Shown here one piece after another: positions 1-8,265 of a stretch of 32,107 nt of DNA; the stretch's first letter is position 1, and each line of letters begins with the position of its first letter. Under the pieces are notes generated by a model. The model saw only the letters and a list, made by a program, of their open reading frames with translations, made no database searches and had not been told where the DNA came from. The stretch is from the NCBI GenBank assembly GCA_035570235.1, contig DATMML010000135.1:1-32107 (forward strand), given 5' to 3'. A program made the translations under genes and the position numbers. Origin of the DNA: Vicinamibacteria bacterium. Lineage in GTDB: Bacteria > Acidobacteriota > Vicinamibacteria > Fen-336.

Positions 1-467
1 GGGAACAGGTGCAGCCGGGGCTCGATCAAGCGAAGATGCTCGCGCAGACCGGGGGGGGCCACCAGACCGCGGGAGAGCATGGCCTCGATGTCCGCCATGT
101 CCTGCACGTGGCCGCGTGCGATCTTGGCCAGGGCCTGGGCGCAGAGGTCGTAGTGGTGGCAGGCCAACCGCCCCTCGCGGGCCACGAGCGGGCTGCGGTC
201 CTCCCAGCCCTCGAGCTCGGGCAGGTAGTCGCCGGGACATGTCCGCTCCACGTTGATCCCCACCCTCGCCGCGATGACGGGGAGGGCGCGGAGGAGCCGT
301 TCATCCTCGGGAACGAGCTTGACGTCCAGGTCGATGGTGTAGGGGCGCCAGCCATAGAGCACGGCGGTGGCGCCGCCGGTGAGGTAGAGCCGCGCCTCCC
401 TCTCCGCCTCTTCAGAGAGCGCGCGCAGGAACTCCCGGATCCGATCTCCGTCCGCTAGTTGGCCCAT
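1..467 (-). CDS. Nucleotidyltransferase-like protein (DUF6036-like), 3' end cut by window edge
   Basis: An ATG at 467 opens a frame that stays open to the window edge (155 codons visible). The N-terminal half has the pattern LTGGATAVLYGW followed about six residues later by DLDVKL. That is the glycine-rich loop and acidic pair of the nucleotidyltransferase fold seen in DUF6036 and AbiEii-type proteins. Later comes a stretch rich in His, Asp and Ala (CHHYDLCAQALAKIARG) and a conserved-looking ARGHVQDMADIEAML segment, which fits the substrate-handling part of such proteins. Its start lies 13 bases inside the end of argH, so it is translated from the arginine operon transcript. The family includes toxin-like enzymes that transfer nucleotides to RNA or protein, but the role here is unknown. 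The most likely partner is the extra C-terminal domain of ArgH directly upstream. The fold call is from motif reading only, and the C-terminus is not visible. Confidence 0.72.
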   Translation of the reverse strand, partial: MGQLADGDRIREFLRALSEEAEREARLYLTGGATAVLYGWRPYTIDLDVKLVPEDERLLRALPVIAARVGINVERTCPGDYLPELEGWEDRSPLVAREGRLACHHYDLCAQALAKIARGHVQDMADIEAMLSRGLVAPPGLREHLRLIEPRLHLF

Positions 468-2125
468 GCGGCCGCCCGCTCGAAGCTGACGAGCGTCCCC
501 AGGAGGTCGTTGTACCGCGTGTGCGCCCCCTCGGAGTCCAGTTTCCGTAGCCGCTCGTAGAGGCGGAACTCGGGGGTGGGAAAGGGGGAGGGCACGTCGA
601 GGCCGAGCCGGCGCAGGCGCGGGGCGCCGATGGAGACCACGAGGGCGGGTACCGACTCGACACCCCGCTTCAAATCCTCGAGGCCTTCCTGAATGAGGTC
701 GCTCCCGGGAAGGCCCGCGCCCGGTCCCGCGCCGCCCCCGCCCAGGACAGGGGCGGCCCCGACCCGGGCTCGCGCCGCGTCCAGAGCGGCCCGGACGGCG
801 TCGGGGGCGGTCCCCCCCGGTGCGGCTTTCGTGCGCACGACCTGCTCGGGATCGAAGAGGGCGGGAAGGCGCGCCGCCACCGCCGGGGCCTGGGCGGGGA
901 GGGCGCGGGCGGCTGCCTCCCGGAGCGTGGTCCCCGCTCTCTGCGCCTCCGCCACCAGCGAGCCCACGAGGGCATGGGCGCGGCGAAACGGCATGCCCTC
1001 CCGGGCCAGGGCGACGGCCAGGCCCGCGGCCATCATCTCCTCGCTCTGGGCCGCCCTCCGCATGGCTTCCGCGACGAGGCCCAGGCCGGAGACAACGCCC
1101 TTCATCACTGCGAGCGAGGCGGCGGCGGTGTCGGCGGCGTCGAAGACCGCCTCTTTGTCCTCCTGGAGGTCCTTCTGGTAGCCGGCGGGGAGCCCCTTCA
1201 TCAAGGTGAGCAGCCGCAGCAGGTCGCCGTCCACGCGGGCGGCCTTGCCGCGCACGAGCTCCAAGGCGTCGGGGTTCTTCTTCTGGGGCATGAGGCTGGA
1301 GCCGGTGGTGAAGGCCTCGGGCAGGGTGAGGAAGCCGTACCCGGGCCCGGAGAAGGCGATCAGGTCCTCGGCCAGCCGCGCCAGGTGGGTTTGGAGCTGG
1401 GCACAAGCGAAAACAAACTCCGCCGCGAAATCGCGGTCCATGACCGCGTCGAGGGCGTTGGCGGAGACGGCGGCAAAGCCGAGATCGCGGGCCAGGGCCT
1501 CCCGGTCGAGGGGAAGGGCCGTGCCGGCGAGGGCCCCCGAGCCCAGGGGGAGCACATCCACGCGCCCGCGCGCGTCGCGCAGGCGCTCGTGGTCCCGCAC
1601 CAGGGCCCAGGCATGGGCGGCGGCCAGGTGGCCGAAGGTGATCGGCTCCGCGGCCCGGGTGTGGGTGTAGCCTGGCATGACCGTCTCGGCCCCCGCACGT
1701 CCCTTCTCCACCAGAGCGGTCACCAGGGCCGAGGTCCCCCCGAGGAGGCGGTCGATCGCGGTGCGGGTCCAGAGGCGGAGGGCGGTGACCGCCTGCTCGT
1801 TCCGGCTGCGGCCGAGGTGGGCCTGGCCGGCCAGGTCGCCCACGATCTCGGAGAGCCTGGTTTCCACGAAGCTATGCACGTCCTCGGCATCGATTTCCGA
1901 GTAGGCCGGGTCGGCAAGCGCCTTTTGGAGGACCTGCTGAAGCCCCGCCTCCAGGGCCCGCGCGGAGTCGGGGGGGAGGGCCCCGCATCGCTCCAAGGCG
2001 CGAACGTAGGCCTGAGAGGCGGCGATCTCCTCCGCGAGCAGGCGCCGGTCGAAGGGGAAGGAGCGGTTGAACTCCCAGAAGACAGCGTCGGGATCGCCCG
2101 CGTAATTGCCGCCCCAGAGCTTCAC
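455..2125 (-). CDS. argH: Argininosuccinate lyase with extra C-terminal domain
   Basis: This enzyme splits argininosuccinate into arginine and fumarate, the last step of arginine synthesis. Residues 1 to about 460 align by eye with the whole of ArgH: HLGRSRNEQ near 103, GYTHTR at 152-157 with the likely catalytic His, and the fumarase/lyase signature GSSLMPQKKNP at 275-285. The normal C-terminus is recognisable as VVRTKAAPGGTAPDAV. The protein then runs through a Gly/Ala/Pro linker into 82 more residues, giving 556 residues where the family usually has about 460-470. The start is GTG, 33 bases after the argJ stop, with no clear Shine-Dalgarno sequence. It is the last biosynthetic gene of the operon. 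The lyase call is certain; the tail is described separately. Confidence 0.96.
   Translation of the reverse strand: MKLWGGNYAGDPDAVFWEFNRSFPFDRRLLAEEIAASQAYVRALERCGALPPDSARALEAGLQQVLQKALADPAYSEIDAEDVHSFVETRLSEIVGDLAGQAHLGRSRNEQAVTALRLWTRTAIDRLLGGTSALVTALVEKGRAGAETVMPGYTHTRAAEPITFGHLAAAHAWALVRDHERLRDARGRVDVLPLGSGALAGTALPLDREALARDLGFAAVSANALDAVMDRDFAAEFVFACAQLQTHLARLAEDLIAFSGPGYGFLTLPEAFTTGSSLMPQKKNPDALELVRGKAARVDGDLLRLLTLMKGLPAGYQKDLQEDKEAVFDAADTAAASLAVMKGVVSGLGLVAEAMRRAAQSEEMMAAGLAVALAREGMPFRRAHALVGSLVAEAQRAGTTLREAAARALPAQAPAVAARLPALFDPEQVVRTKAAPGGTAPDAVRAALDAARARVGAAPVLGGGGAGPGAGLPGSDLIQEGLEDLKRGVESVPALVVSIGAPRLRRLGLDVPSPFPTPEFRLYERLRKLDSEGAHTRYNDLLGTLVSFERAAAWAN
458..703 (-). other. Extra C-terminal domain fused to ArgH (residues 475-556)
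   Basis: This is an 82-residue extension beyond the end of the normal lyase. It begins SDLIQEGLEDL, has a central APRLRRLGLDVP segment, then PEFRLYERL and HTRYNDLLGTLVSFERA, and ends just as the next gene begins. It is not a GNAT domain, so it is not the ArgH-ArgA fusion known from some marine bacteria. The shape (short, charged, alpha-helical, translationally joined to a nucleotidyltransferase gene) looks like a separate small protein, perhaps the partner of that enzyme, that has become fused in frame to argH. The codon before the first Ser is GGG, where a stand-alone gene would have a start. No in-frame ATG is present near the junction. Confidence 0.6.
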
Positions 2126-2158
2126 GAGGGGAGCCCGGCCCCAGCGGCGAGCGCCGTC

Positions 2159-3349
2159 CTAGCTGCGATAGTGCGCATTGATGTCCACGTAGCCATGGGA
2201 GAGGTCGCAGGTCCAGATCCAGCCCACCGCCCGTCCCGCGTGCAGGCCCACGCGGATGCGGACGGGGTCTTCGGAGAAGGCCCGCCGGGCCGCCTCCTCA
2301 TCATAGGGGCGGGCCCGCCCGCCCTCCGCCACCCACACATCGCCGAGCCAGAGGTCCACTCGCCCCATGTCGACATCCACCCCCGCGCGCCCCACCGCGG
2401 CCAGGACGCGGCCCCAATTGGGATCACCGCCGTTTAGGGCGGTCTTCACGAGCGGTGACTCCGCCACCGTGCGGGCAATGCGGTCGGCTTCCGCCTCCAG
2501 CCGGGCCCCCTCCACCCGCACCTCCGCCACGCGGGTGGCCCCCTCGCCGTCGCGCACGATCAGGCGCGCGACCCGGCGCGCGGCCTCGACGAGAGCGCCC
2601 CGGAAGAAATCGTAGTCCGGGCCCTCCTCGAGGATGGCTCGGGCGGGCAAGGCGCCGCTGGCCAGGACGAGCGCCATGTCGTTGGTGGAGGTGTCGCCGT
2701 CCACCGTGATCCGGTTCAGGCTCTCTCCCACCGCCTCCCGCAAGGCCCCGCGCAGGAGCGGAGGGGCCACCTCGGCGTCGGTGGTGAAGAAGGCGAGGAG
2801 GGTGGCCAGGTTGGGGGCGATCATTCCCGAGCCCTTGGCCATGGCCCCGATGCGCGCGGTCGCCCCCCCCAGGGGGAACTCCACCACCACCTCCTTGGGG
2901 TGGGTGTCGGTGGTGAGGATGGCTCGGGCCGCGGCCGCCCCCCCTTCCCGCGAGAGCTCGGGAACCGCGCTCGCGATCCCCGCCCGCACCTTTTGCATGG
3001 GCAGGTTCACCCCGATCACGCCCGTGGAGGCGACCACCACTTCCTCGGGCCGGCCCCCGATCTCGCGGGCGAGAAGAGCGGCCGTCTCGCGCGCATCGCG
3101 AAGCCCCTGCTCGCCCGTGCCCGCGTTGGCGCCGCCTGCGTTCACCACCACCCCCCGCGCCTGCCCGGAGGCGAGGTGCTCGCGGGAGACGATGACGGGC
3201 GCGGCCTGGGCCAGGTTCTGGGTGAACACGGCCGCGGCCGCGCATCCCCGGTCGGCCACAATCAGGGCCAGGTCCAGGCCCTGGGGCTTGATGCCGGCGG
3301 CGATGGCCGCGGCTCGGAAGCCCAGGGGGGCGGTGACGCCGGTGGTCAT
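2159..3349 (-). CDS. argJ: Glutamate N-acetyltransferase / amino-acid acetyltransferase ArgJ
   Basis: ArgJ moves the acetyl group from N-acetylornithine to glutamate, closing the acetyl cycle of arginine synthesis; some members also use acetyl-CoA. The 396-residue protein has the self-cleavage region KGSGMIAPNLATLLAFF, where Thr183 should become the N-terminal nucleophile of the beta chain. It also has VDGDTSTNDMAL and ALNGGDPNWGR, all family landmarks. The ATG at 3349 overlaps the argG stop in an ATGA, which implies translational coupling and fixes the start. A dedicated acetylglutamate synthase (argA type) lies in the same operon and no argE deacetylase is visible, so ArgJ probably recycles acetyl groups while ArgA primes the cycle. 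Confidence 0.95.
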   Translation of the reverse strand: MTTGVTAPLGFRAAAIAAGIKPQGLDLALIVADRGCAAAAVFTQNLAQAAPVIVSREHLASGQARGVVVNAGGANAGTGEQGLRDARETAALLAREIGGRPEEVVVASTGVIGVNLPMQKVRAGIASAVPELSREGGAAAARAILTTDTHPKEVVVEFPLGGATARIGAMAKGSGMIAPNLATLLAFFTTDAEVAPPLLRGALREAVGESLNRITVDGDTSTNDMALVLASGALPARAILEEGPDYDFFRGALVEAARRVARLIVRDGEGATRVAEVRVEGARLEAEADRIARTVAESPLVKTALNGGDPNWGRVLAAVGRAGVDVDMGRVDLWLGDVWVAEGGRARPYDEEAARRAFSEDPVRIRVGLHAGRAVGWIWTCDLSHGYVDINAHYRS

Positions 3350-4620
3350 CGCTTGGCTTCTACCGCGGACCGGGGAAGGCGCTCCCTGAGGGCTTCCGTC
3401 TTCGCGTCGCCGGCAGCGCGCTCGCGGGTCAGGGCCCGCACCCGCTCGGGCAGGCCGAAGAGGCGGATGAAACCCTCCGCATCCTTGTGGTCGTAGGCCA
3501 TGCCGGTCCCGAAAGTGGCCAGATCCTGGCGGTAGAGACTGCGGGGAGAACGGCGGCCGATGGCCTCCGCCCGCCCCTTGAAGAGGCGCACCCTCACCTC
3601 CCCCGTCACTTCCACCTCCGTCTCGTCCACGAAGGCGGCCAGGGCCTCCCGGAGGGTCGAGAACCAGAGCCCGTCGTAGATGAGCTGCGCGTAGCGCACG
3701 GAGACGGACTGCTTGAAGTGGAGGGTGTCGCGGTCGAGGACCAGGCGCTCCAGCTCCCGATGGGCGAGGTGGAGCACGGTGCCGGCGGGGGTCTCGTAGA
3801 CGCCCCGAGACTTGATCCCCACCAGCCGGTTCTCCACCAGGTCCAACCGGCCCACCCCGTGGGCCCCGGCCAGGCGGTTCAGGGCCTCCACGAGCGCGAC
3901 CGGTCCCAGCCGCTGGCCGTCCAGGCCCACGGGCACCCCCTGCTCGAAGGCGAGGGTCACGACCTGGGGACGGTCGGGGGCGTCCTCCGGATCCACCGTC
4001 AGCTTGAACATTTCCTTGCGGGGGGCGTCCCAGGTGTCCTCCAAGTTGCCGCCCTCGTGGGAGAGATGCCAGAGGTTGCCGTCCCGACTGAAGAGGTCCT
4101 TGGGGGTCTGGTCGACGGGTACCCCGTGGGTGGCCGCGTAGGCGAGGGCGTCCTCGCGGGAGCGGATCGTCCATTCCCGCCAGGGAGCGATGACCTTGAG
4201 GTGGGGAGCGAAGGCGCCGTAGGTCACTTCGAATCGAACCTGGTCGTTGCCTTTGCCGGTGGCGCCGTGGGCGAGGGCGTCCGCCCCGGTGGCGAGCGCG
4301 GTCTGCACCTGGCGGTAGGCCAGGAGGGGCCGGGCAAGGGCGGTGCCGAGCAGGTAGTTGTCCTCGTAGACGGCGCCCGCGGCCAGGGCCTTGAAGGCGA
4401 AGTCCCGCACAAACTCCTCGCGCAGGTCTTCGACCACGCACCTTGAAGCTCCCGTGGCCAGGGCCTTGCGCTCCACCGCCTCGAGGTCGTCCCCCTGGCC
4501 GACATCCCCGCAGTAGGCGATGATCTCCGCGCCTCCGTAGGTCTCTTTGATCCAGGGGATGATGATGGAGGTGTCCAGACCCCCCGAGTACGCCAGCACC
4601 ACCTTCTTGACCGTGCTCAT
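3346..4620 (-). CDS. argG: Argininosuccinate synthase
   Basis: This enzyme joins citrulline and aspartate with ATP to form argininosuccinate. The 424-residue protein opens with the PP-loop AYSGGLDTS at about residues 10-18. It carries GHGATGKGNDQVRFE-type nucleotide and citrulline binding sequence near the middle (here AHGATGKGNDQVRFE) and the family segment SHEGGNLEDTWDAP. The ATG at 4620 overlaps the stop of the upstream acetyltransferase gene as ATGA, and its own TGA overlaps the argJ ATG the same way, so the start is well supported. The substrate citrulline would come from ornithine carbamoyltransferase, whose gene (argF) is not in this operon and must lie elsewhere. Confidence 0.96.
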   Translation of the reverse strand: MSTVKKVVLAYSGGLDTSIIIPWIKETYGGAEIIAYCGDVGQGDDLEAVERKALATGASRCVVEDLREEFVRDFAFKALAAGAVYEDNYLLGTALARPLLAYRQVQTALATGADALAHGATGKGNDQVRFEVTYGAFAPHLKVIAPWREWTIRSREDALAYAATHGVPVDQTPKDLFSRDGNLWHLSHEGGNLEDTWDAPRKEMFKLTVDPEDAPDRPQVVTLAFEQGVPVGLDGQRLGPVALVEALNRLAGAHGVGRLDLVENRLVGIKSRGVYETPAGTVLHLAHRELERLVLDRDTLHFKQSVSVRYAQLIYDGLWFSTLREALAAFVDETEVEVTGEVRVRLFKGRAEAIGRRSPRSLYRQDLATFGTGMAYDHKDAEGFIRLFGLPERVRALTRERAAGDAKTEALRERLPRSAVEAKR

Positions 4621-5156
4621 TTCCGGGGCGCTCCTTCCGCGAGGCCGATTGGGGCTTCTCTCTTTTGATCGACGCTCAGCACCGGTTGAGCGTCCTTGGT
4701 CACGGCCCGCACCATGGCCGTCTCGTCGCAGCAGAGGTTCAGGGGGCAGGCCTTGCAATCGGTGACCAGCTTGTCCAGGAACTGCTCGCGGCGCGTGACT
4801 TGGAAGCCCAGGTTCAGGAAGAAGGGAACCCGCCTGGTCAGGGCCAGGACTTGCAAGAAGCCGCGCTCGCTCGCCCAGGCGAACAACCGCTCGGCGATGG
4901 CGTGGCCGATCCCGCGCCCGACCTGGTCCTCGCGCACGGCCAGCGAGCGCAGCTCGCCCAGTCCGGGGCCGAGCTCGGTGAGGGCGCCGCAGCCCGCCAC
5001 CCCCCCGTCCACCTCCGCCACCAGGAAGTCACCCAGGCGTGCCCGCAGCGATTCCTCGCTGCGGCGCAGAAGGAGCCCCCGGTCCGCATAGCCGTTGATG
5101 AGGTCCAGCAGGACCGCCACGTCCCTCTCCTCCGCCCTACGCAGCCGCACCTGCAC
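4617..5156 (-). CDS. argA: Short-form N-acetylglutamate synthase (GNAT family)
   Basis: This 179-residue GNAT acetyltransferase most likely makes N-acetylglutamate from glutamate and acetyl-CoA. The acetyl-CoA loop region reads SLAVREDQVGRGIGHAI (Q/R-x-x-G-x-G/A type). The substrate part includes LALTRRVPFFLNLGF, and the C-terminus has a cysteine cluster, DCKACPLNLCCDETAMV. A Cys-rich tail ending in a DE-x-AM motif is, to my knowledge, a trait of the short stand-alone ArgA proteins. The start is a GTG lying 20 bases inside the end of argD, and the stop overlaps the argG ATG. Its place within an arginine operon supports the substrate; a general GNAT enzyme is the alternative. Confidence 0.85.
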   Translation of the reverse strand: MQVRLRRAEERDVAVLLDLINGYADRGLLLRRSEESLRARLGDFLVAEVDGGVAGCGALTELGPGLGELRSLAVREDQVGRGIGHAIAERLFAWASERGFLQVLALTRRVPFFLNLGFQVTRREQFLDKLVTDCKACPLNLCCDETAMVRAVTKDAQPVLSVDQKREAPIGLAEGAPRK

Positions 5157-6300
5157 CTCCCTCGAGAACCGCCTCCAGGGCGGTCAGGAACACCCGAATA
5201 TCCCCGCCCCCGATCGCGAGCGGAGGCAGGAGTCGCAGCACGTTGTCCCCGGCCTTGGTCGCGAGCACGCCCCGCTCACGGAGCCCCTTCAGGACCGGCC
5301 GGACCTCGCCCTTGAACTCCACCCCCAGCATGAGGCCGAGGCCGCGCACCTCGGCCACAACCGGGAAGCGGCGGGCCAGCCGTTTGAGGCCCCGGCGAAG
5401 GGCGGCGCCTTTCTTCTCCACCTTCTCCAGGAACCCGGGGGTGGTGATGCGGTCGAGCACGGCCAGGGCGGCCGCCGCCACCACGGGGTTGCCGCCAAAG
5501 GTGCTGCCGTGATCGCCCACTTGAATGGCGCCCGCGAGGTCCTGGCGCAGGAGAACCGCGCCTATGGGCAGGCCGCCCCCCAGGGGCTTGGCCAGGGTGA
5601 GGATGTCGGGGGTGATTCCGGCGTGCTGGTAGGCGAAGAGCCGCCCCGTCCGGCCGAGTCCGCACTGCACCTCGTCCGCCACCAGGAGGGCCCCCCGCTC
5701 GCGGCAGAGGTCGGCCAGGCCGCGCAGGAACTCCGGGGGGGCGGCCCGCACCCCGCCCTCGCCCTGCACGGGCTCGATCATGACGGCCGCCGTCTTCCCT
5801 CCGATCGCGGCCGCGGCCGCGGCCAGATCGTTCCAGGGGCAGAAGCGGACGCCGGGGAGGAGGGGCTCGAACGGCTCGCGGTACTTGGCGGTCCAGGTGA
5901 CGGAGAGCGAGCCCAGGGTCCGGCCATGGAACCCGCGCTCGAAGGCCACCAGCTCGCTGCGCCCCGTGGGCTTCCCGATGCGCCGGGCGAACTTGATGGC
6001 CCCCTCCGCCGCCTCCGTCCCCGAGTTGCAGAAGAAGGCGCGGGCGGGGAAGGCCAGCGAGACCAGGCGCTCGGCGAGGGCCGCGCCGGGCTCGGTGTGG
6101 AAGAGGTTGCTGGCGTGGATGAGCCGGCCTGCCTGCTGGCGGATGGCGGCCACCACCCGCCGGTCGCCGTAGCCGAGCCCGTTCACGCCGATGCCGGCGG
6201 CAAAGTCCAGGTAGCTCCGCCCCTCCTTGTCGAAGAGCCGGGCGCCCTTGCCGGAGACGAGGACGAGGTCGCGCTCGTAGACGGGAAGCAGCGCGCTCAC
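5137..6300 (-). CDS. argD: Acetylornithine aminotransferase
   Basis: A pyridoxal-phosphate class-III aminotransferase that converts N-acetylglutamate semialdehyde and glutamate to N-acetylornithine. The 387 residues include FCNSGTEAAEGAIK (phosphate-binding segment), FHGRTLGSLSVT, DEVQCGLGRTG with the Asp that contacts the PLP ring nitrogen, and LTLAKPLGGGLPIGA with Lys238 as the Schiff-base lysine. I place the start at GTG 6300 because it overlaps the argB stop as GTGA and because the family begins a few residues before the LLPVYERD segment seen here. The frame upstream of that GTG is only antisense-like GC-rich read-through. The order argB-argD-argA fits the pathway. Confidence 0.95.
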   Translation of the reverse strand: MSALLPVYERDLVLVSGKGARLFDKEGRSYLDFAAGIGVNGLGYGDRRVVAAIRQQAGRLIHASNLFHTEPGAALAERLVSLAFPARAFFCNSGTEAAEGAIKFARRIGKPTGRSELVAFERGFHGRTLGSLSVTWTAKYREPFEPLLPGVRFCPWNDLAAAAAAIGGKTAAVMIEPVQGEGGVRAAPPEFLRGLADLCRERGALLVADEVQCGLGRTGRLFAYQHAGITPDILTLAKPLGGGLPIGAVLLRQDLAGAIQVGDHGSTFGGNPVVAAAALAVLDRITTPGFLEKVEKKGAALRRGLKRLARRFPVVAEVRGLGLMLGVEFKGEVRPVLKGLRERGVLATKAGDNVLRLLPPLAIGGGDIRVFLTALEAVLEGGAGAAA

Positions 6301-7055
6301 GCCTGCCCTCCTGGGCCGGCCGTGATGCGGGTGCCCGGGAAGCCCCCCGTGAGCCGGGCCCGGCCGGCGACCACGACCTCCGGGATCCCGGCCTGAACGG
6401 CCTCGAGCGCCACGCTCACCTTTAGAGCCATCCCTCCCCCAATCGTACCCTCCTCGATCCGGCGCCGGGCCTCCCCCGCGGTAAGGGACGCCACCGGGGC
6501 GTCCCCCAGGAGGACCCCGTCCACATCCGAGAGGTAGACGAGGATGCTCGCGCCGAGGGCGAGGGCGAGGCCGAGCGCGGCCTCGTCCGCGTTGACGTTG
6601 ACCGACTCCCCCAAGGGACCGGAAGATACGGGGGAAACCACGGGCAGGAACCCGGCCCGCCAGAGGGCGAGCACGGGCCCGGGGTTCACGCACTCCGGTG
6701 TTCCGACCCGCCCCAGCCCCGGCTCCAGCCGCGCCCGAATGAGCCCGCCATCCCGCCCGGAGAGCCCGACCGCGGCCACCCCCGCCCCCATCAAGCCTGA
6801 AGCCAAGGCCTTGTTCACGACCCCGGACAGCACCATCTCCACTACCTCCATGGCCGCGGGCGAGGTCTCCCGGCGGCCCCCCACGAAGCGTGACTCGATC
6901 GAGAGCGCCCGCAGCAGCCGGTCCACGTGGCGACCGCCCCCGTGCACCACGAGGGCGTCTCCGCCCCCGTTCTTGAGCTCGGCGGCCAGGGGCTTCATGA
7001 GACCCGGGTCCTCGAGCGCGGGCCCTCCCACCTTGTAGACCCGGGCGCCCGTCAA
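6297..7055 (-). CDS. argB: Acetylglutamate kinase
   Basis: Phosphorylates N-acetylglutamate in the second step of the cycle. The 252-residue amino-acid kinase has VVHGGGRHVDRLL (glycine-rich substrate loop), a central AVGLSGRDGGLI, SVNVNADEAALGLA and the nucleotide-side YLSDVDGVL. It is at the short end for ArgB and lacks the N-terminal helix that arginine-inhibited hexameric forms carry, so allosteric inhibition by arginine is less likely. The family segment usually written GGMIPK is GGGMALKV here, keeping the Lys. The start is TTG overlapping the argC stop as TTGA; no better in-frame start exists close by. The LysZ/LysW-dependent aminoadipate kinase is a relative, but the operon decides for ArgB. 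Confidence 0.93.
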   Translation of the reverse strand: MTGARVYKVGGPALEDPGLMKPLAAELKNGGGDALVVHGGGRHVDRLLRALSIESRFVGGRRETSPAAMEVVEMVLSGVVNKALASGLMGAGVAAVGLSGRDGGLIRARLEPGLGRVGTPECVNPGPVLALWRAGFLPVVSPVSSGPLGESVNVNADEAALGLALALGASILVYLSDVDGVLLGDAPVASLTAGEARRRIEEGTIGGGMALKVSVALEAVQAGIPEVVVAGRARLTGGFPGTRITAGPGGQA

Positions 7056-8023
7056 GGGCCCTCTCCCCCCGGCAGGCCCGCCCCCTCCGGCCAGCCCAGG
7101 GCCAGGTTCAGGTTCTGGATGGCCTGGCCGGCGGCTCCCTTGACCAGGTTGTCGAGGGCGGAGAAAACCACCGCCCGCCCGGGGGCGCCCGCATGCACGG
7201 AGATCCGACAGTCGTTCGTCCCCACCACCTCCGACAGCCGGGGCGGCCCCCCCTCCATCACGCGCACGAAGGGCGAGCCCGCGTAGAAGGCGCGCAGGGC
7301 GCCCGCGAGCTCGCCGGGAGCAGCCCCCGTCTTCACATAGATCGCGGAGAGGATGCCCCGCTTCACGGGCAGGAGGTGCGGGCAGAACGTCAGGGGAACC
7401 GCCCGCCCCACCCGGTCCTCGAGCACCGCCTCCATCTCCCCCACATGGCGGTGGGTCCGGCCGGGGGCGTAGGCGGAGAGGTTGTCCGCCAGCTCACAAA
7501 AGAGAAGGTCCTCGCGCAGCGTGCGGCCCGCGCCGGTGGCCCCGCTCTTGGCGTCCACCACCACATCGTCCTCCACCAGCCTCTCGCGCAGGAGGGGTAG
7601 GAGGGGCAGGAGGACGGAGGTCGCGTAGCAGCCGGGGTTGGAGATGAGGCGGGCGCCGCGGATGCGGTCACGGTAGATCTCGGGGAGCCCGTAGGGCGCC
7701 CTCCCGAGAAGGTCGGGGGCGGGATGTTCGTGGCCGTACCAGGCTCGGTAGGCGGCGGCCGTGGGCAGGCGCAGAGCGCCGGAGAGATCCACGACCACGG
7801 CCGCGGGCCGGGCCCTCTGGAGCCGGGCCGCGAAGCTCGCGGCCACCTCGTGGGGGAGGGCGAGAAAGTAGGCGCCCGCTTCGCGTTCCAGGCCCGCCTC
7901 GTGGGCAAGATGGCCGTGGCCGGAGCCGGTCGTGAAGCGGACCTTGGCTTCAGGATGCGCGGCCAGGAGGCGCACGAGCTCCCGCCCGCTGTAGCCCGTG
8001 GCCCCGAAAACGCCTACGTCCAT
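7052..8023 (-). CDS. argC: N-acetyl-gamma-glutamyl-phosphate reductase
   Basis: Reduces N-acetylglutamyl phosphate with NADPH to the semialdehyde; it is the first gene of the arginine operon. The 323-residue protein starts with the Rossmann loop VGVFGATGYSGRELVRLL. The catalytic Cys132 sits in SNPGCYATS, and HRHVGEME plus HLLPVKRGI follow as expected for ArgC. I chose ATG 8023 because the Rossmann strand begins directly after it and a GGAG lies about eight bases upstream. A TTG further upstream (8050) would only add a Gly-rich stretch. The gene follows a promoter, a leader ORF and a terminator, described separately. Confidence 0.95.
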   Translation of the reverse strand: MDVGVFGATGYSGRELVRLLAAHPEAKVRFTTGSGHGHLAHEAGLEREAGAYFLALPHEVAASFAARLQRARPAAVVVDLSGALRLPTAAAYRAWYGHEHPAPDLLGRAPYGLPEIYRDRIRGARLISNPGCYATSVLLPLLPLLRERLVEDDVVVDAKSGATGAGRTLREDLLFCELADNLSAYAPGRTHRHVGEMEAVLEDRVGRAVPLTFCPHLLPVKRGILSAIYVKTGAAPGELAGALRAFYAGSPFVRVMEGGPPRLSEVVGTNDCRISVHAGAPGRAVVFSALDNLVKGAAGQAIQNLNLALGWPEGAGLPGGEGP

Positions 8024-8081: not shown

Positions 8082-8119
8082 AAAAGAAAAAACCCACTGG
8101 AGCAGCGGCTCCAGCGGGT
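8082..8119 (-). terminator. Intrinsic terminator in the arg operon leader (attenuator)
   Basis: Read on the minus strand, a 12-base-pair stem with one A-C mismatch (arms at 8108-8119 and 8092-8103, four-base loop) is followed at once by TTTTTTCTTTT. That is a textbook Rho-independent terminator. It lies between the arg promoter and argC, with no complete gene upstream for it to end other than the 25-codon leader ORF. It must therefore act inside the operon's own transcript, as an attenuator. Confidence 0.88.
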
Positions 8120-8171
8120 CTCAAGGTCGGTTCGTCGTTTCGAGCGAACTAGACCGCGGCCACCCGCCGGA
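8110..8171 (-). promoter_or_regulatory. Candidate antiterminator pairing in arg leader
   Basis: The minus-strand sequence TCCGGCGGGT (8162-8171), which spans the second Arg-Arg codon pair of the leader ORF, can form ten pairs (one G-U) with ACCCGCTGGA (8110-8119), the first arm of the terminator. The two structures exclude each other. Between them lies a smaller hairpin (8125-8155, arms GGTC..GTTCG and CGAAC..GACC) holding the leader stop codon. A ribosome stalled at the first Arg-Arg pair would leave the antiterminator arm free; one that reaches the stop codon would cover it and let the terminator form. Confidence 0.65.
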
Positions 8172-8226
8172 CACACGGGGCTCGCCTCACGCGGGCCGCG
8201 GGTCGCTCGGCAGGGGGCAGCAACAT
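8149..8226 (-). CDS. Arginine-rich leader peptide of the arg operon
   Basis: A 25-codon ORF, ATG to TAG, starts within about ten bases of the predicted transcription start and ends 30 bases before the terminator stem. It begins MLLPPAERP and holds six Arg residues, at positions 8, 12, 14, 15, 20 and 21, including two Arg-Arg pairs. The first pair is AGG-CGA, codons that look uncommon in the neighbouring genes, where CGC and CGG dominate. Position, size, Arg content and the terminator behind it match a leader peptide that senses charged arginyl-tRNA. It would be translated from a nearly leaderless start, since no Shine-Dalgarno sequence fits. High GC raises the chance level of Arg codons, so this rests on the whole arrangement rather than on composition alone. 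Confidence 0.7.
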   Translation of the reverse strand: MLLPPAERPAARVRRAPCVRRVAAV

Positions 8227-8237
8227 CACAATAAGGA

Positions 8238-8265
8238 ATGATACGCGCCCCAGGGCCCGTGTCAA
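8238..8265 (-). promoter_or_regulatory. Sigma-70-type promoter of the arg operon
   Basis: On the minus strand, TTGACA (8260-8265) and TATCAT (8238-8243) are separated by 16 bases. The -35 box is a perfect consensus match and the -10 box matches five of six. Transcription should begin near 8230, just upstream of the leader ORF. It is the strongest promoter visible in the window and diverges from the acyl-CoA dehydrogenase gene. Confidence 0.85.

Follow-up and report, generated by a model that had tools for sequence, protein, structure and literature searches.

A conserved arginine-codon leader upstream of the arginine biosynthesis operon in a family of Vicinamibacteria: a probable ribosome-mediated transcription attenuator

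Introduction

Arginine synthesis in bacteria is classically controlled by the ArgR/AhrC repressor. This DNA-binding protein and its ARG boxes serve the same operon and the same task in the other families of the class Vicinamibacteria as the element described here, and are absent from the order in which that element, hereafter the Arg leader, is found. Attenuators of the trp/his type share with the Arg leader a leader ORF containing codons for the product of the pathway, the alternative 2:3 and 3:4 pairing of RNA strands, and an intrinsic terminator in front of the first structural gene; the 1:2 pairing of such attenuators has a weakly supported counterpart in the Arg leader. The Arg leader differs from them in having arginine as the signal, in its near-leaderless ORF and in its occurrence in Acidobacteriota, a phylum for which almost none of the predicted attenuators have associated functions (Naville and Gautheret 2010; PMC2965389).

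Among the arginine systems described in the literature searched, the closest is Salmonella speF orf34 (DUF2618), whose downstream gene is activated by ribosome pausing at AGG CGG when arginine is low (PMC6386406). Like the Arg leader, orf34 senses low arginine through two consecutive Arg codons; unlike it, orf34 acts on an ornithine decarboxylase gene via Rho, RNase G and mRNA folding rather than through an intrinsic terminator preceding arginine biosynthesis genes, and encodes a different peptide motif. Leaderless short poly-Cys ORFs of mycobacteria are reported to be amino-acid-responsive attenuators (Canestrari 2020, as cited in PMC9094748); these resemble the Arg leader in being short and leaderless, and differ from it in responding to cysteine and in belonging to Actinobacteria. 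Arginine T-boxes have also been mentioned (PMC1262725). They too represent tRNA-Arg-responsive control at the RNA level, but bind uncharged tRNA directly and have no leader peptide, and the T-box covariance model of Rfam gave no match in the leader. In a survey of Actinobacteria, arginine operons were found without an RNA element upstream (PMC1262725), and a whole-cell model of E. coli led to the suggestion that tandem CGG codons in argA are an arginine sensor (PMC10325894). The literature searched (most subscription journals were outside its scope) yielded no case of an arginine biosynthesis operon attenuated through a leader peptide, and control of arginine biosynthesis by an Arg leader appears not to have been described previously for bacteria in that literature.

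Here we analyse an element which is very probably a ribosome-mediated transcription attenuator of an arginine operon, sensing arginyl-tRNA; no expression or footprint data are available for it.

Results and Discussion

Organization of the leader region

The window, i.e. the whole stretch of 32,107 nt that was analysed, carries on its minus strand an operon of the order argC-argB-argD-acetyltransferase-argG-argJ-argH. Its first structural gene, argC (7052-8023), encodes N-acetyl-gamma-glutamyl-phosphate reductase (TIGR01850, E 8.9e-99), and argB, argD, an argA-like N-acetyltransferase gene, argG, argJ and argH make up the rest (455-7055). Two acetyltransferases are encoded in the operon on the minus strand, an argJ-type bifunctional one (2159-3349) and an argA-like GNAT (4617-5156).

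A sequence-only reading of the region upstream of argC had proposed five elements on the minus strand, and all five were recovered at the coordinates it had assigned. The promoter, described there as near-perfect, is of the sigma70 type and extends over positions 8238-8265 (TTGACA at 8265-8260, a spacer of 16 nt, TATCAT at 8243-8238); with 11 of 12 matches, it is the sole such site across 4 kb (0.0 in shuffles). The Arg-rich ORF, MLLPPAERPAARVRRAPCVRRVAAV (8149-8226), consists of 25 codons followed by TAG (8151-8149), and six of its codons, including two Arg-Arg pairs, specify arginine. Since its ATG (8226) lies 11 bases past the -10 box, the ORF probably has little or no untranslated 5' leader, with no room for a Shine-Dalgarno sequence. 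The putative control codons, Arg14-Arg15 (AGG CGA; 8182-8187), are both rare among the genes of the window. The hairpin containing the stop codon (8125-8155, from folding) holds that codon in its 5' arm and is present in most folds of the leaders assigned below to subtype A. Between the leader ORF and the first structural gene is the intrinsic terminator, a stem-loop of 15 pairs (8089-8122) formed by strands 3 and 4 (its 5' and 3' arms), with a T-rich tail (8082-8092). Finally, the ten-pair antiterminator is formed by strand 2, TCCGGCGGGT (8162-8171), which spans codons 19-22 and covers the Arg20-Arg21 codons, and strand 3, ACCCGCTGGA (8110-8119); one of the ten pairs is G-U. The antiterminator shares the 5' arm of the terminator, and the two structures are mutually exclusive.

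In addition to these elements, we identified a fourth arm that had not been noticed previously. Codons 5-7 (strand 1, CCTGCCG; 8208-8214) can pair with strand 2 and would act as an anti-antiterminator. The arm CCGGCGGG thus has three options: it may pair with the upstream arm (1:2), pair with the 5' arm of the terminator (2:3), or lie beneath a ribosome that has reached the stop codon.

The element as a whole does not correspond to a known RNA family, as no Rfam match was obtained at the gathering score and those below it were at chance level. A second ORF within the leader, starting from a GTG that follows an AGGAGG- or AGGCGAGG-like Shine-Dalgarno sequence, was also rejected on inspection, the GTG being missing in four of the related loci (G010, G003, G012 and G004).

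Conservation of the element within the family

The ArgC sequence of the window was used as a query to locate the operon in 100 relatives, the upstream regions of which were then read. Ten genomes of the family share the promoter, the ORF and the terminator before argC, and a covariance model built from these ten loci, with the window's own genome included, also picked up G001 and G004, which belong to the same family. The TTGACA box is found in all ten family loci upstream of argC and also before the leaders of G001 and G004. The element is accordingly observed before the arg operon in 12 of the 14 genomes of this family (Vicinamibacteria, Acidobacteriota), with bit scores of 57-136 and no extra copies within the same genome, and nothing else scored above 39.3 bits among the 193 class and 396 phylum genomes searched. 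The two family genomes without a match are incomplete at the locus: argB starts at the contig edge in G002, and G007 is 63% complete and yielded no argB match.

In G004, for which no argC was found in the genome, the leader directly precedes argB; in G001, where a divergent homologue (39% identity) takes the place of argC, it is located between this homologue and argB, directly before the latter. In G003, argC begins at the T tract of the terminator, so that no promoter fits between the two and read-through is the only evident route of transcription. These arrangements bear on the possibility that the leader ORF and terminator constitute an independent small-protein or small-RNA gene and that argC has a promoter of its own. 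The peptide is indeed conserved, and a strong terminator could simply end a short transcript. However, a promoter could hardly, if at all, be accommodated between the terminator and the gene (in G003 not at all), the element stays with the operon where argB comes first, and such a gene would give no role to the conserved alternative pairing with strand 3. We consider an independent gene very improbable and attenuation of the operon the preferred interpretation. As a separate observation, the apparent start codon of argC in G003 (locus L005) overlaps the end of the T tract, and the hairpin may also affect argC translation.

The arginine content of the ORF was dropped as stand-alone evidence, being too common in such GC-rich sequence: an Arg content of 24% or more is reached by 16% of the 20-40-codon ORFs of the window, and 4% combine it with two or more RR pairs. 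At the level of sequence, it is conservation and not Arg composition that lifts the predicted leader beyond chance. Retention of the terminator alone among relatives had been named as an outcome that would refute attenuation. The relatives retain the ORF, its frame, the Arg-Arg pair, the stop codon and both alternative stems, which lends support to the predicted attenuation.

Leader peptide and control codons

The 12 leader peptides are 23-34 residues long, and Arg14-Arg15 (numbering of the window) are their sole invariant positions. The frame of the ORF is kept in all 12 genomes, with indels inside it preserving the frame. Arg14 is encoded by AGG throughout (12/12), and Arg15 by CGA in eight genomes, AGG in three and CGC in one; the codons at the pair thus differ synonymously, with arginine kept. 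Rare codons are favoured in this part of the leader: in the segment through the Arg pair, CGA and AGG make up 33 of the 47 Arg codons (the sequences are related and not independent), and CGA, AGG and AGA together account for 8.4% of the Arg codons in the genes of the window, the reference being its 15 gene frames. In the leader of the window alone, three of four Arg codons are rare (probability about 0.002).

It could be argued that the Arg codons merely result from the conservation of GC-rich RNA arms and that the ORF is incidental to a riboswitch or a protein-binding attenuator. Arg20-Arg21 are compatible with this, as they fall within strand 2 and are dispensable as arginines: G008 has Gln-Arg at these positions, and in G001 the RNA arm is retained but read in a different frame, so that both preserve the RNA and lose Arg there. 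Arg14-Arg15, on the other hand, lie outside strands 1 to 4 and are invariant as amino acids in spite of synonymous variation. Furthermore, Arg frequency is 22.5% in the ORF frame versus 16.2 and 15.6% in the other two forward frames, and the absence of an Rfam match also speaks against a purely RNA-based element. An incidental ORF is thus scarcely plausible, and a translated leader remains the favoured interpretation.

The peptide itself might be what matters. Both the fungal arginine attenuator peptide and SpeFL are known to cause metabolite-dependent arrest, and by analogy free arginine or ornithine, and not a low level of charged tRNA, could stall the ribosome on the nascent Arg-leader peptide. 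Some residues beyond the Arg pair, such as P in RRxP, are conserved, and the terminator would also be favoured if arginine made the ribosome stall close to the stop codon. Outside the pair, however, the peptide varies, its C-terminus and length included, and the pair occupies the position expected for tRNA sensing and has rare codons. The HIRR..HIMM motif of orf34 (PMC6386406) is missing from the aligned peptides, and the genes downstream of the leader in the window are the arg operon and not speF. We consequently regard an arrest peptide as unlikely, and sensing of arginyl-tRNA by the translating ribosome as the preferred interpretation.

Alternative RNA structures

Each of the three pairings was assessed across the 12 genomes. 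The terminator stem (3:4) is paired in 94% of cells and displays seven doubly changed cells versus 2.3 in shuffles, a number exceeding that in all 500 shuffles; compensatory changes have evidently occurred in this stem. The antiterminator (2:3) is paired in 99% of cells and is nearly invariant, with 409 of 500 shuffles reaching the observed score; as it hardly varies, covariation cannot confirm it. Covariation of both stems had been suggested as a check on the attenuation reading; the terminator passes it, and the antiterminator, for all its pairing, is too invariant to show covariation. The 1:2 pairing (89% of cells, one double change) is weakly supported. Its double change is in G008, where strand 2 has CAG instead of CGG and strand 1 has GCT instead of GCC, so that the pair is regained. 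When the partners were shifted by 1-3 columns, pairing fell to 26-64% for 1:2, 2:3 and 3:4.

Spacing is likewise conserved. The distance from the first codon of the Arg pair to strand 2 is observed to be 17 nt in 10 of the 12 leaders, and 14 and 18 nt in the others, a spacing at which a ribosome paused on the pair would leave strand 2 free. Modelling a ribosome at the Arg pair gave the 2:3 pairing in each of the 11 leaders computed (12 are known), and in 11 of 12 folds made before strand 3 is transcribed the 1:2 pairing forms. Ribosome footprint sizes in these models are textbook values and were not measured. Strand 1 would lie just upstream of, not under, a ribosome at codons 14-15, and the block on 1:2 pairing is therefore inferred to be steric. 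Ribosome-free equilibrium folds up to strand 3 give 2:3 in several leaders, and for these the off state relies on 1:2 forming first.

The leaders fall into two subtypes with respect to the stop codon. For a ribosome whose A site holds the stop codon, the footprint extends over 4-7 of the 8 strand 2 bases in subtype A and in G004. Subtype B has a distant stop: in genus g6, as well as in G001, the stop is further off, and the 1:2 pairing can be restored behind the ribosome.

Absence of ArgR and ARG boxes

The expectation of the sequence-only reading, that arg operons are usually under ArgR/AhrC, is borne out by the rest of the class. ArgR is present in 80 of the 83 other class genomes sampled, and no ArgR domain (PF02863 or PF01316) was detected in any of the 17 genomes of the order. 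In many genomes of the class argR is, by coordinates, close to argC on the opposite strand. Upstream of argC outside the order, ARG-box-like sites scoring at least 11 of 14 are found in 15 of 17 loci, with a score of 10 in the other two; in the 13 argC regions of the order no ARG boxes were observed, the score never reaching 11 of 14. Outside the order, G032, G040 and G088 also have neither ArgR domain, which may reflect assembly gaps or independent losses.

The best reading of this distribution is that the leader stands in for the lost ArgR in this lineage, an inference drawn from sequence comparison alone. In our view, the lineage is likely to have replaced ArgR with ribosome-mediated attenuation specific for arginine and based on a leaderless leader ORF, and to control its arginine synthesis mainly in this way. 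The sister family f2 has neither ArgR nor an Arg leader, so that the loss of the repressor is not exactly matched by the occurrence of the leader. Three f2 loci (L012, L013 and L014) have a near-identical sequence, ACGAGGTCATAAGACACAGGAATTGG, just upstream of argC, and L013 and L014 have a terminator-like hairpin, GACCCGC..GCGGGTC, before argC.

Probable histidine leaders in other Acidobacteriota

A scan for Arg leaders upstream of argC in 21 other loci produced no convincing case; a match repeated in three of them we take to be the C-terminus of ribosomal protein S9. The remaining covariance model matches in the class and phylum, at about 30-39 bits, were rejected, those inspected being unrelated terminators or coding sequence and two histidine leaders. 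The latter two come from another family of Acidobacteriota and are likely histidine leader-peptide attenuators with terminators: MQSLRHHERHHHGIPCRRTAMA at L146 (G199:C26:20611-20750, minus strand) and MLRRLHHGHRHHHKTCVPADCHGLI at L147 (G500:C9:55115-55252, minus strand). Past the terminator of L146 there is what we take, from sequence recognition, to be a HisI-like ORF followed by a HisG-like one, and the ORF downstream of L147 is presumably HisG-like on the same grounds. The two leaders amount to an unplanned positive control, and suggest that Acidobacteriota possess more than one instance of a leader attenuator whose codons match the pathway.

A model for the attenuator

In the model that we propose, transcription is inferred to start a few bases before the leader ATG, and the ribosome would probably load at the very 5' end; translation of the ORF is likewise an inference. 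When charged tRNA-Arg, the inferred signal, is scarce, the ribosome would stall at the rare Arg14-Arg15 codons. The stalled ribosome would separate strands 1 and 2, and strand 2, left free, would capture strand 3 in the antiterminator, allowing RNA polymerase to read into argC and turning the operon on. When arginine is plentiful, the ribosome is predicted to reach the stop codon, covering strand 2 in subtype A leaders; in subtype B and in G001 a ribosome at the stop would let 1:2 re-form behind it. With strand 2 unavailable, strand 3 would pair with strand 4 and transcription would stop. If no translation takes place, 1:2 is expected to form and the operon would be off too. Both the stalling and the direction of the response are inferred.

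Implications

If true, the proposed mechanism would extend classical attenuation to arginine, which is not usually among the amino acids listed as controlled in this way. The Arg leader may serve as a system for asking how attenuation works with a leader ORF at or near the 5' end and without a Shine-Dalgarno site, and its conserved rare Arg codons make the theory of control-codon choice testable. For the family itself, it would mean that the whole arg operon is under an Arg-codon leader, in a phylum whose attenuators hardly have assigned functions. The class with ArgR and ARG boxes, set against the order without them, would provide a natural comparison for the replacement of a repressor by an RNA switch.
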